This document shows positions 53,147 through 57,082 of a DNA stretch of 64,000 bases, piece by piece; position 1 is the first letter of the stretch; each line of letters opens with the position of its first letter. This DNA is from Hirudinaria manillensis (Eukaryota; Annelida; Clitellata; Hirudinida; Hirudinidae). The stretch covers positions 9,662,201 to 9,726,200 of the forward strand of contig CM067535.1 in assembly GCA_034509925.1 (NCBI GenBank). The letters run 5' to 3'. A program made the translations under genes and the position numbers. Below the pieces are notes generated by a model. It did not search any database. It was given only the letters and a program-made list of their open reading frames with translations, and was not told the origin of the DNA.

Positions 53147-56100
53147 CAAAACTTTTATTCAGCCCGGATTACGTCCGCAAAACCATCACGCAAATCGGAG
53201 AACCTCATCGATGTTTTTAGAGTCCTCAGACGGGCCCGGGAAAACCCATGGACTGTATTAACAGTAGCCTAAATATAATATTATAAATTAGATAAAGTAC
53301 AATCAAATAAATGTTCTTCTCGGCCTTCTTCTTTTCCTTGCTTTCCAAGCGTTTGCTCTGAATGTTCTCCATATTCTATGGGTTTCTATCAGAGTCTTAA
53401 TTGATGTCCACGTTAAGAACCGCTTAGATATGCCAAGCCTCTTCCACGAGGTCCAAGTTTCCATGGCGATTGCTCCTCTCCAATTGATTATGTAGGCTGT
53501 GGCAATCGCCTCCATTTTGCCCTTGCCCTGATTTGGGCTGTTTGCCTTCATCCAGCGATGAATGTCCGTGGTGTTATATTTGTCTATCTTGCTTTGGTGG
53601 ACTCTATCTAGGTCCACGTTATCGGACACCACGGCCACGTCACAAATTATGTAACGTTCATCGCTCCAGGCACAAAGATCGGGGATTCTGGTCCCGCTGA
53701 CGGTTGGAATACGAGGCTCTCTTGTTGTTGAGTACCCCATCTGTGTCAAGACCGTCTCAAGCATCTTCGCTATACAGTCGTGCCTTGCATGGCGGGGCCC
53801 GTCGGTACTCGGACACTTTTGGATAATGTGGGCGAGAGATTCCATTTCCCCACATCTGGCTGCGCAGGCCGTGTTGAACAGGGGTGTTTTTCTGGAAGCC
53901 CGCAATCTATTGAAAAGTGTTGCTGAGCGGACTTTGACACAGCTTATGTATTGGGTGGATGACATTCTGTTGATGCCATCCACCAGCCATTCACTTGGGG
54001 CTATTGCTTCCGGGAATCTCATCAGCCCGTGTCCGTCGACCGTTTTATAAAGTTCCCTCGCGGTTGATAGTCCACGAGGAACGTTCGGCTCATCTTTTTC
54101 CTTTGGCCTCCCAAATCTTTTGACTTCGCTGGCGATCATTGTGTTTTCGCGCAATGCATCCATCAGGAAGTTGTCGTTGCTCTCTTTGGCCTGCTGTAGA
54201 ACTTTTGTCATTCTACGTATTCTAATTTCCGGAATCCATCGACGCAGTTGAAGGATTCCCATTCCTCCCGTTCTGATCGGGGCATGAAAGAATGCATTTG
54301 GGGTGTCTCTTGGCAGCCGGAGCCATTTTCGAACAGACCTCCTTATTGCGACATCAGCAGAATTCAAGGACTTGAGGCTGATCGCTTCGAAGGTGAGGAA
54401 GTGAACGAGACTAGGGAGAAGATGAGTCCTTAGGACATACACTCTCTGGCATGGCACGAGCGGAGCCCGCGAAATCGAGTGAAGGCCTTTTTGAATTTTA
54501 TCTGCAAGCGAAGCAAATTGCATTCGAGGTCCGATTCGAACTCCTAAATACTTATAGGTGTCAACTATGGAGAGTGCCCTGATATCCTTATCTTGCAGTG
54601 TCAGGTATGGCTCTGGGTTGACGATCCATTGTCTTTTACGAGTGATGACCTCAGTTCTCATCGAGGCACACTTGGATGCGTTCATGATGAGTCCAACTTT
54701 GGCCATCGACACCTCCAGTTGTCGCAACATCACTTTCATTCCAACGTCTGTGCTGGACAGTAAAAGAAGGTCGTCTGCAAAGGCGATGTAGTTGCATTTT
54801 TCGGAGGATTTGCTTCCTCCCGTAACCCCAATTGATCTGTCAATGTCACTGACAACCATGTCAATGACAGCGTTGAACAACATCGGGGACATGGGGTCGC
54901 CCTGCCTTACTCCCCTGCCGACCTGTATGGATCTGCTGAGCTCTTTTCCCATCCTGATGTGGACCTGACAATTACTGTACATTTCTGACAGATATCTTGT
55001 TAACAGGGGTGGTGCGCCGAATCGTGAGGCTGCCCTGATGATCGATTCGTGGGAAACGGAATCGAACGCCTTAGCCACGTCTACAAATGTCATGTTGAGC
55101 TTTTTTCTGTCTTGTCTACTTTGGGCGACAAGAGCCTTTACAAGCCAGATGTTGTCGGCCAAACCGTCGCCTGATTGGAACGCCTTCTGTCTCGATGATA
55201 GTGGCCAATATAAGGACATGCGTTTATTCATCACTCGATGGAAGAGGCGACTCATGAGCGGACTCACAGTGATTGGTCTGAATTCACTTGGATCGGCTGT
55301 TCCTCTCACCTTTGGAATAAAGCTGACGACGCCAACTTTGAAGGGAGATGGTGGCAGGCCCGTCAATAACCAGAGGGACATGTGCACAGCAAAGTCGATT
55401 GGTTTGATGTTTTCCAAGTGTTTCCTTTTCACTCCATCCAGACCGGGAGCACTGTCTTTAAGACCTCGCAGAGCCATTTTTACTTCAGTGCAGCTGACGG
55501 GAGCCTCCAAATCATGACAAATACCGCAAACTGAAACCACCGATCTATCGTCTGTAATTGACTTTTGAGAAAATATTGGTTCCCAAAACTGGAGCAGTTG
55601 TTCGTGTGGTATGGGTTTAACTTCCTCGTTATATTCTTCATTCAAAACCGAACGAGCTCCTGAAGATCTATTCTTCCTGAATAACCCTTGGACCTTTGCT
55701 CGTTTCATCTTTCTGTCTTCCCTTCTTATCTCCTTCTTGGATGGTCGGATCTTCGTTGTCCGAAATGGTCTGGTCAGATTTCCCGCTTGACTTTGGTCAG
55801 ATGCAGCATAGGAAGTAGTCTCGACCTTCGGAGGCCGCTTTTCATATCTGTCAGCTCCCTTCTTTCCACTGTGCACTTTCAAACCCTCCATCCATTGTAT
55901 GTATTCCTTGTCTATCAAACGGCGCTTTGAGTCCATGTCATCAACTTGATTTCTCAACAGTTCGGAAAGTTCCTCGCATGGCAGACTTATGTATTTGTAA
56001 TTTGCGAGTATAAATTGCTGCAGTTGAATGAAGCTATTCACTTCCGCTTCGACTGGAGATGCCGTGAGTGTGGGAATCGCAGTACATTTCGTAGGCTTGC

Positions 56101-57082
56101 CAGAGCAAGTTGTCTTTTCAATGATGTAGTTATTTAGATACTTGCGATATCCTGGCTTGTTCCTAACTTTCCTAATGGTTTCAACTGGGACGGTTGGCAA
56201 GTATCGGTGAAGGGCAAGGTTGACCTGCTTTTTCTCAAGTGAATTCAGCCTCCATTCGGCGCTGGCAATCTCGTTCCATAGGCTGTCCACCCCTGAGAGA
56301 GCAGAAGTAATTTCACGGTTGGATGAACGTTCAACTTGACTCTCTGATCCACCAGATTCTATTTTAGTCTGGTATTTCTCCAAGATGATCCTATATTTGG
56401 GCTGCCTTCTGTGAGACTTAATGGCATTCAGTGACCTGTGTGGGAAACCTTTCTGTGCCTCTATGTTGATGTTTCTGATTCCTTTGCTTTTCAGTTCCAA
56501 TTCAAACTTGGCTAACAGTGTGGATTCTTCCTCAGTCCAAACACACTTTGAATAACTCTTGCCAGCTCTTTCTTTGTGGTATTCCTCTGGGTGAGCATGG
56601 TTCTGATGGATTCTGAGACCTCGTACTGTTTTGAAGACAGCTTTACAAAAACAACATGTTTCCTGCTTTTCCTCATTGCTTGTGTCTTTCACAACTGAAT
56701 TTGTAACTGGAGGCACAGCAACGCTTTCGCCGGAGGAGTTCTTTTCAAATATGGCTCGAGAACGAAGAGTTTTAACTAGGTTGTCGGAATTGGACATTCC
56801 GAAACGGTGAAAGCTACAAGTTTTCAAGAAGACTGCGAGTCCGTAAACGAAAGTCAACAGACACGACGATACGGAAGGATTTTCGTTCGCAAGTCTTCAA
56901 TTTTCCCCTTTTCTTTTACAGAAACAGTAAAATGATTTCACCTTCAGACAAAACGGAAGGTAGGGGACACGAATAAGCTAAATTCGGAGAAATTCGATAA
57001 TTTCCGAGCGAAATTAACATGTATTTAACACGAAAACACGCAAGAAAAACAAATCGACCGCTCCTTAGCTTACTCGCTCGAA
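53147..57082 (-). mobile_element. R2-clade non-LTR retrotransposon inserted in an (ATT)n tract
   Basis: 3936 bp between two (ATT)n tracts. On the minus strand it has a 5' region of about 285 bp (57082-56798), one ORF (56797-53303) and a 3' untranslated region of about 156 bp (53302-53147). No long terminal repeats are present. Both 5' and 3' ends have homologous counterparts in the deleted copy at 45570-46029, which confirms them as element sequence. Neither flank contains the conserved 28S rDNA target that canonical R2 elements use. The position is inside an intron of the ZMIZ-like gene, antisense to it. The microsatellite flanks prevent recognition of a target-site duplication. Confidence 0.93.
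53303..56797 (-). CDS. R2-type reverse transcriptase / restriction-like endonuclease polyprotein
   Basis: Encodes the retrotransposition protein (target-primed reverse transcription). From the ATG at 56797 it has 1164 residues; the frame is open 20 codons further upstream without an ATG. Domains in order: one C2H2 finger at about 48-69 (C-x2-C-x12-H-x4-H); a Myb-like region at about 85-145; the RT domain at about 440-720 with SAPGLDG, FVDVAKAFDS, GRGVRQGDPMSP, the catalytic FADD (673-676) and YKYLGV; thumb motif KWLRLPRDTPNAFFHAP; a CCHC knuckle C-x3-C-x7-H-x4-C at 978-995; and a PD-(D/E)XK endonuclease with IPD (D1040), D1053 and the HQSKIDKY lysines near 1070-1073. The CCHC and PD-x12-D spacings equal those of R2. 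A single N-terminal finger resembles the R2-D type. All key residues are intact and there is no frameshift, so it may be active. Confidence 0.96.
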   Translation of the reverse strand: MSNSDNLVKTLRSRAIFEKNSSGESVAVPPVTNSVVKDTSNEEKQETCCFCKAVFKTVRGLRIHQNHAHPEEYHKERAGKSYSKCVWTEEESTLLAKFELELKSKGIRNINIEAQKGFPHRSLNAIKSHRRQPKYRIILEKYQTKIESGGSESQVERSSNREITSALSGVDSLWNEIASAEWRLNSLEKKQVNLALHRYLPTVPVETIRKVRNKPGYRKYLNNYIIEKTTCSGKPTKCTAIPTLTASPVEAEVNSFIQLQQFILANYKYISLPCEELSELLRNQVDDMDSKRRLIDKEYIQWMEGLKVHSGKKGADRYEKRPPKVETTSYAASDQSQAGNLTRPFRTTKIRPSKKEIRREDRKMKRAKVQGLFRKNRSSGARSVLNEEYNEEVKPIPHEQLLQFWEPIFSQKSITDDRSVVSVCGICHDLEAPVSCTEVKMALRGLKDSAPGLDGVKRKHLENIKPIDFAVHMSLWLLTGLPPSPFKVGVVSFIPKVRGTADPSEFRPITVSPLMSRLFHRVMNKRMSLYWPLSSRQKAFQSGDGLADNIWLVKALVAQSRQDRKKLNMTFVDVAKAFDSVSHESIIRAASRFGAPPLLTRYLSEMYSNCQVHIRMGKELSRSIQVGRGVRQGDPMSPMLFNAVIDMVVSDIDRSIGVTGGSKSSEKCNYIAFADDLLLLSSTDVGMKVMLRQLEVSMAKVGLIMNASKCASMRTEVITRKRQWIVNPEPYLTLQDKDIRALSIVDTYKYLGVRIGPRMQFASLADKIQKGLHSISRAPLVPCQRVYVLRTHLLPSLVHFLTFEAISLKSLNSADVAIRRSVRKWLRLPRDTPNAFFHAPIRTGGMGILQLRRWIPEIRIRRMTKVLQQAKESNDNFLMDALRENTMIASEVKRFGRPKEKDEPNVPRGLSTARELYKTVDGHGLMRFPEAIAPSEWLVDGINRMSSTQYISCVKVRSATLFNRLRASRKTPLFNTACAARCGEMESLAHIIQKCPSTDGPRHARHDCIAKMLETVLTQMGYSTTREPRIPTVSGTRIPDLCAWSDERYIICDVAVVSDNVDLDRVHQSKIDKYNTTDIHRWMKANSPNQGKGKMEAIATAYIINWRGAIAMETWTSWKRLGISKRFLTWTSIKTLIETHRIWRTFRANAWKARKRRRPRRTFI

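Follow-up and report, generated by a model that had tools for sequence, protein, structure and literature searches.

The 64,000-nucleotide stretch of the Hirudinaria manillensis genome analysed here (contig CM067535.1, positions 9,662,201 to 9,726,200, forward strand; hereafter the window) carries a full-length non-long-terminal-repeat (non-LTR) retrotransposon of the R2 lineage. Judged from its sequence, its relatives and their flanks, this element is very probably a copy of a young R2-lineage family, here called family A, that targets (AAT)n for insertion rather than the 28S gene. R2 is valued for holding one target across animal evolution, and R2 relatives sited in AAT suggest that a famously strict targeting system changed its target. 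The preliminary description of this DNA had recognized an intact R2-type open reading frame (ORF) with C2H2, FADD, CCHC and PD-x12-D motifs, lying between (ATT)n arrays of 359 and 580 bp in an intron of a ZMIZ-like gene, with no 28S target sequence present. All of these motifs were located and their coordinates were right; both arrays were returned by Tandem Repeats Finder, the Zmiz1_N profile was found split around the element, and no 28S sequence adjoins it. The other families inserted in AAT, their arrays and the canonical R2s of the same genome, all described below, go beyond that description.

The distribution of family A was examined by a genome-wide nucleotide search, in which 40 of 101 first-look candidates were scored and the analysis was confined to strong matches. 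With the last kilobase of the element as query, the 148-Mb genome yielded 42 matches, almost all of them 96-100% identical, indicating that family A is a young, multicopy family. The element termini, TTCGAGCGAGTAAGC at the 5' end (57082) and AATAAAAGTTTTG at the 3' end (53147), were matched in other copies. A protein search, with 40 of 1506 candidates scored, gave 40 rows; among these, 11 family A copies, including that in the window, were open over the whole or nearly the whole query, one of these frames being inflated by a run of N. Several copies are truncated at the 5' end, and in one (L020, C6:5514816) the 5' part lies inverted beside the 3' part; 5' truncation and inversion are usual for target-primed reverse transcription. 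The inversion in L020 resembles twin priming, and its 3' flank continues into the end of a family C element. On the sequences at hand, family A appears to be recent and is probably active.

Flanks were scored for AATAATAAT, that is (AAT)3, on the strand of the element within a stated distance of the junction. This motif was present within 60 bp in 28 of 32 family A 5' flanks and within 220 bp in 30 of 32, while 35 of 39 3' flanks carried it within 60 bp; for family B, it was found in all nine 5' flanks that could be located (10 fetched). The background level was 1.3% of 60-bp windows (396 of 30,004, sampled in the window and at a second C10 locus, about 30 kb, not genome-wide), and exact (ATT)8 words on either strand account for at most 3.3% of genome bases (206,083 x 24 of 148 Mb). 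The orientation was fixed, since the AAT form stood on the element's strand in all flanks counted positive, and the ATT form was observed in only two 5' flanks (L028 and L013), both of which hold the AAT form as well. The R2-site motif, the only 28S motif searched, was found in none of the 39 family A 3' flanks. Tabulation of the flanks, as proposed in the preliminary description, gave AAT in most of the 5' flanks and most of the 3' flanks, and the copies read do not lie mostly in 28S or in random DNA. Left out of the 5' counts were L011 and L036 (all N in the piece read, the piece of L011 being L040) and L020 (inverted, with the outer flank outside the locus), and on the 3' side L071 and the partner of L055, L085 (N). 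The flank counts were also made without L060 (5' end of B outside the piece) and L088 (A copy with a B 3' end), the 5' junctions of the copies in L078, L080, L081, L082, L084 and L086, and both flanks of the copy at C9:1747035-1748484.

Target-site duplications were then used to ask whether AAT was there before insertion. Duplications holding AAT together with unique or irregular DNA were observed at L019 (128 bp), L022 (about 205 bp), L024 (53 bp), L016 (46 bp), L017 (42 bp) and L027 (24 bp), and for family B at L062/L072 (29 bp) and L059/L069 (59 bp); an apparent 8-bp duplication was seen by eye at L025. BLAST of AAT-masked flanks paired those of L019, L022 and L024, the unique parts being 98.6-100% identical. 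The 5' copies of the duplications lie inside or directly after AAT, indicating that the tract pre-dates the insertion at those loci. In L019 and L022, AAT is found only behind the unique part of the duplication, and in L024, L025 and L035 fewer than three AAT units stand right at the 3' junction, but AAT is present on the 5' side. For the remaining copies with both flanks, a duplication, if any, is indistinguishable from the repeat or, in L035, was not seen.

A pattern of AAT3 plus TCGAGCG within 14 bases was hit 109 + 38 times, overlaps included, and its reversed control 2 + 10 times. Among the hits listed and the loci fetched, four families with their own 5' ends were distinguished, A, B (GGCTCGAGCG), C (GTCTCGAGCG) and D (TATGTTCGAGCG). 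For B, C and D, a single copy of each family was read and showed an intact long ORF with AAT on both sides; protein identity to A is 57% for B, 44% for C and 45% for D. The residues of the finger (C48, C51, H64 and H69), the CCHC knuckle and the PD-D motif are invariant in A-D, as compared with one sequence per family. An in-frame TGA in family B was taken as an effect of the alignment end, and in the only B copy read from end to end the frame stays open over 1145 amino acids. Members also share tracts in head-to-tail order, as A-B-A on C3, with the end of a family C element further upstream, and as B-A-A on C5. Within the 500-1500 bp read, 10 of 39 family A 3' flanks reach a neighbouring element of one of the families A-D, all 10 in the same orientation. 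At C7:4811350 (L054, L088), an A copy gives way near residue 933 to the 3' end of a family B element, through recombination or a template switch. In L125 (C3:9241800-9242600) and in the 5' flank of L032, AAT tracts enclose a repeat of about 190 bp that appears to be non-coding; its 3' end is like that of family C, and it may be a non-autonomous partner sharing the AAT target.

Canonical R2s were found in the same genome. A pattern spanning the 28S insertion point gave no match in the genome, and as such a pattern would miss occupied sites, a second pattern was confined to the 20 bases of 28S that follow the R2 site. It was matched at four places, all close to the beginning of C9 (4306, 11242, 15392 and 46541). 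At the two places read (L120 and L121), an R2-like 3' end is joined exactly to TAGCCAAATGCCTCG, and the host R2s are joined exactly to TAGCCAAATGCCTCGTCATC at the canonical 28S site. These copies are damaged or rearranged and represent two different families, 42% identical in columns of the reverse transcriptase (RT). The first of them is represented in the tree below by a second copy in L120, because the site-joined copy has its RT deleted. Relatives were also sought with the A-D alignment in other collections. None was found in viral contigs, and the scan of bacterial genome contigs returned three eukaryote-like stray contigs (L112, L113 and L114). L112 and L113 come from metagenome-assembled genome records for an endosymbiont of Escarpia laminata, an annelid, and carry R2s joined to the 28S site that presumably belong to the tubeworm itself. 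The more distant L114 carries at its 3' end what we take to be 28S-like DNA from elsewhere. The occurrence of R2-type elements on these three contigs labelled bacterial represents eukaryote contamination of the genome collection.

The RT tree included A-D, L112, L113, the two host R2s, R2Bm, R2Tg, 9nl2, L114 and three outgroup elements of the same genome. Support is given as Shimodaira-Hasegawa-like approximate likelihood ratio test/ultrafast bootstrap (SH-aLRT/UFBoot) on RT columns, for a smaller set and a larger set with the host R2s. A-D formed one clade (99.7-99.9/100), and A-D together with L112/L113 and the two host 28S R2s were set apart from R2Bm, R2Tg, 9nl2, L114 and the outgroups (95-99/95-98). 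In RT identity, A-D are 40-44% identical to the 28S R2s of the host and of L112/L113 (41-42% for A) and 31-32% to R2Bm. An earlier tree without the close R2s, in which A-D were not separated clearly from R2Bm and R2Tg (62/61), was superseded by these trees. As to R2 lineage D versus lineage A, the family A element has a single N-terminal finger and equal RT identity to R2Bm and R2Tg (0.32 each); according to PMC13188248, finger number does not define R2 lineage. The phylogenetic placement proposed in the preliminary description was obtained insofar as the lineage groups with 28S-inserted R2s in a tree of the elements listed above.

An alternative that we consider unlikely, though worth serious weighing, is that the AAT lineage split before R2 became 28S-specific, with no switch from 28S. 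Two results weigh in this direction and against a change of target: a constraint that unites all 28S-type elements (with L114) to the exclusion of A-D was not rejected in the larger set by the approximately unbiased (AU) test (p 0.078 and 0.075), and the Shimodaira-Hasegawa (SH) test rejects this constraint in neither set. Non-28S R2-homologous elements of sponges near the root are also discussed in PMC13188248. A change of target is further limited by low support (84.8/52 and 84.9/61) for the branch that places A-D nearest to the host R2s. On the other side, the bootstrap of 95-98 groups A-D with the 28S-inserted R2s of the host and the tubeworm contigs to the exclusion of R2Bm and the bird-type R2, and in the smaller set AU did reject the same constraint (p 0.022 and 0.032). 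A constraint leaving L114 out of the 28S group was rejected as well (p <1e-4), but this outcome is confounded with where L114 falls in the tree. Given the AU split between the sets and the non-rejection by SH, a change of target from 28S to AAT is likely on these sequences, the root of the tree not being fixed. The change of specificity toward AAT suggested in the preliminary description therefore draws support from the AAT flanks, the duplications and the RT tree, and is tempered by AU in the larger set.

It is very doubtful that the 3' (AAT)n is simply a tail from reverse transcription, with the 5' AAT arising by chance or from the tails of neighbours and no target specificity involved. In keeping with a tail, a short A-run leads from the 3' ends into AAT, the A-runs that precede AAT in family B differ in length, and some copies do follow the AAT tail of another element. 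However, AAT is found in the 5' flanks of 28 of 32 copies, several of which adjoin plain unique DNA, and such a tail is contradicted by the duplications with unique DNA, in which AAT was at the insertion point beforehand. The pre-existing AAT at duplicated loci thus speaks against AAT as a mere element-made tail, while some growth of the AAT tail may occur on the 3' side. That the element is of the R4/Dong type rather than of the R2 lineage is highly improbable: the target is of the same kind, Dong being inserted in (TAA)n according to PMC7998251, but the RT groups with 28S R2s in the tree, which holds no R4/Dong sequence. An insertion not aimed at AAT, with entry into open or AT-rich DNA and survival mostly in microsatellites, has hardly any probability, since the fixed orientation to AAT and the junctions within the tract are unexpected from survival alone, even though not all junctions lie in pure tract and L021 sits in AT-rich DNA with only short AATAAT.

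Several observations nevertheless count against insertion aimed at (AAT)n. L021 has no AAT tract on either side (176 bp of 5' flank read). L037 lacks (AAT)3 in the last 220 bp of its 5' flank, with AAT present on the 3' side. In L035, AAT is found on the 5' side, but the 3' side holds no more than two units and no duplication is visible. In addition, the flank data come from the strong matches among the scored candidates (40 of 101), some copies contributing one flank only.

For insertion aimed at (AAT)n, the following course may be proposed. The ORF protein would recognize the AAT repeat via its zinc finger, Myb and neighbouring parts; the endonuclease would nick the ATT strand within the tract, and the nicked end would prime reverse transcription of the element RNA. 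The cut in the other strand would fall at no precise point, at a distance of 8 to about 205 bp, giving rise to the duplications. The common ancestor of A-D would have been inserted in 28S DNA and would have changed its target once. A wider scenario, offered tentatively and with less than even confidence, is that a 28S R2 of the host lineage was re-specified to (AAT)n once and radiated into at least four families beside the surviving 28S R2s. These families would renew their own landing sites, as each insertion splits one tract into two (tail plus long duplication) and members pile up head-to-tail, and might help to inflate AAT in the genome. The finger-Myb part is still clearly alignable to that of R2Bm, so the change of target may need few residues. 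A-D beside 28S R2s in one genome represent a natural pair for asking which parts of the protein set the target.

The features of the element and its surroundings are listed in Table 1. From stop to stop, the ORF spans 53303-56896 on the minus strand (1197 amino acids), and from the first Met (56797) it codes for 1164. The only domain listed by Pfam was RVT_1 (E 3.8e-32), with FADD at residues 673-676. The single N-terminal finger has the spacing C48-x2-C51-x12-H64-x4-H69, the knuckle is C978-x3-C982-x7-H990-x4-C995, and the endonuclease motif is P1039-D1040-x12-D1053. The best solved relative was R2Bm (8gh6, E 1.4e-112), with a match covering two stretches, residues 31-148 and 356-1147, the second of which begins ahead of the RT and reaches the endonuclease. 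The N-terminal stretch was matched with an i-Evalue of 6.3e-8, and in it the finger-Myb part is alignable; residues about 87-139 are what we take to be the Myb domain of the R2 literature.

Table 1. Features of the family A element and its surroundings in the window
Feature	Position	Strand	Basis or remark
Full-length R2-lineage non-LTR retrotransposon, family A (3.9 kb)	53147..57082	-	Ends agree with other copies
Single ORF, 1164 amino acids	53303..56797	-	Open, no stop
N-terminal C2H2 zinc finger, C48..H69	56591..56656	-	Invariant in one sequence each of A-D; aligned to R2Bm
Myb-like domain, about residues 87-139, extent by eye	56381..56539	-	Aligned to R2Bm N-terminal region; conserved in A-D
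Reverse transcriptase core RVT_1, residues 496-755	54533..55312	-	Pfam
CCHC knuckle, C-x3-C-x7-H-x4-C	53813..53866	-	Motif; kept in A-D
Restriction-like endonuclease, PD-x12-D	53639..53683	-	Motif; kept in A-D
5' untranslated region (UTR)	56798..57082	-	Begins CGAGCG (common to A-D); holds GTGTCCCCTAC and AAGGGGAAAA-like blocks common to A-D
3' UTR	53147..53302	-	Sequence; ends AATAAAAGTTTTG
5'-side target repeat, (ATT)n on +, (AAT)n on element's strand, 580 bp	57083..57662		Tandem Repeats Finder
3'-side target repeat, (ATT)n on +, (AAT)n on element's strand, 359 bp	52788..53146		Tandem Repeats Finder
ZMIZ1-like exon part upstream of intron	52170..52292	+	Pfam Zmiz1_N 12-52, E 7e-13
Next ZMIZ1-like exon part	59499..59609	+	Pfam Zmiz1_N 51-87, E 1.3e-10

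The 5' UTRs of A, L077, L096 and L095 have in common the CGAGCG start and the GTGTCCCCTAC and AAGGGGAAAA-like blocks, and the CCCC and GGGG blocks of the A-D 5' UTRs could pair. For the 121 nucleotides near the 5' end of family A (56959-57079), the fold was better than that of all 200 shuffles (z -5.5). No HDV-like ribozyme was listed by Rfam in family A at E up to 1, nor in one whole C locus, one whole D locus or a 5' piece of B. An HDV-like nested P1/P2 fold was reached by 0 of 200 mononucleotide shuffles for A, 3 for B, 34 for C and 11 for D, and no claim is made for it.

As the Zmiz1_N profile is split around the element, the family A copy is placed within an intron of a ZMIZ1-like gene and runs in the antisense direction. 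The first 37.8 kb of the window (1-37816) is occupied by a satellite array of 133-143 bp units. An assembled ribosomal DNA (rDNA) array was not found in the genome. At L091 (C10:5450800-5459800), an orphan 18S plus 5.8S fragment lies beside histone-like genes identified by eye; its 18S match is stretched (model 673-1831 over 2167 bases), and neither a large-subunit match nor any of the 28S words tried was found there. A match to the 5.8S model below cut-off at C14:84558, on an 85-kb contig, is weak and possibly the start of a bacterial 23S; no Rfam match at gathering level was obtained there.

The families were finally compared with known systems as described in the literature (PMC5035012, PMC7650587, PMC13188248, PMC3774820, PMC7998251, PMC4640811 and PMC5678591, covering R2 families without specificity, sponge R2-homologous elements, Dong, HERO and Togen). 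Canonical R2s (R2Bm, the host R2s at C9, L112 and L113) share with A the C2H2, Myb, RT, CCHC and PD-x12-D parts, as checked for R2Bm and L112; in contrast to them, A-D target (AAT)n and not the 28S site, and have long and variable duplications. A survey of R2 in 360 genomes (2026) describes 28S specificity as conserved and, in the sections consulted, sponge R2-homologous elements as the ones off-site (PMC13188248). These sponge elements, placed near the root, are described there without target specificity, and R2NS-1_SMed and R2NS-1_CSi are R2-type proteins outside 28S, likewise described without target specificity (PMC5035012). A-D also lie outside 28S, but with a specific repeat target. Microsatellite specificity is known for some HERO families and for fish Togen, which targets (TG)n (PMC4640811), but these belong to other clades, as compared by description only. 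R9 of rotifers has an exceptionally long target-site duplication, as here (from a title in the reference list of PMC7650587); R9 is rDNA-specific, whereas A-D are AAT-flanked and vary in duplication length from copy to copy. An rDNA target of the R8/R9 kind does not agree with the AAT flanks of A, for which the R2-site motif of 28S was the one searched. In the open-licence literature, without Repbase Reports, no report of a microsatellite-specific R2-lineage element was found.

R2 in the strict sense combines homology with the 28S site, as stated in PMC13188248. Family A has the protein homology in N-terminus, RT and endonuclease, together with Myb and finger, and is not inserted in 28S, while the two other R2 families of the same genome are. 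By this strict definition, A-D are R2-homologous and not R2. By descent, the RT of A groups with 28S-inserted R2s (95-99/95-98, with AU p of 0.02-0.08 on the alternative). Dong, of the R4 clade, uses (TAA)n as its insertion site in most of the insects, molluscs and cnidarians (PMC7998251), and shares with A-D the TAA/AAT microsatellite target. Dong-like elements are said to lack N-terminal zinc-finger motifs, whereas family A has one and the finger-Myb part of A-D is R2-like. The convergence with Dong put forward in the preliminary description agrees with the N-terminal architecture, the tree and the published statements, Dong being set apart by description and not by sequence. A-D and Dong thus appear as parallels in which the same kind of repeat was reached, by Dong apparently without a finger. 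As judged from sequence comparison, A-D are of the R2 lineage by architecture and tree, and Dong-like in the choice of target.

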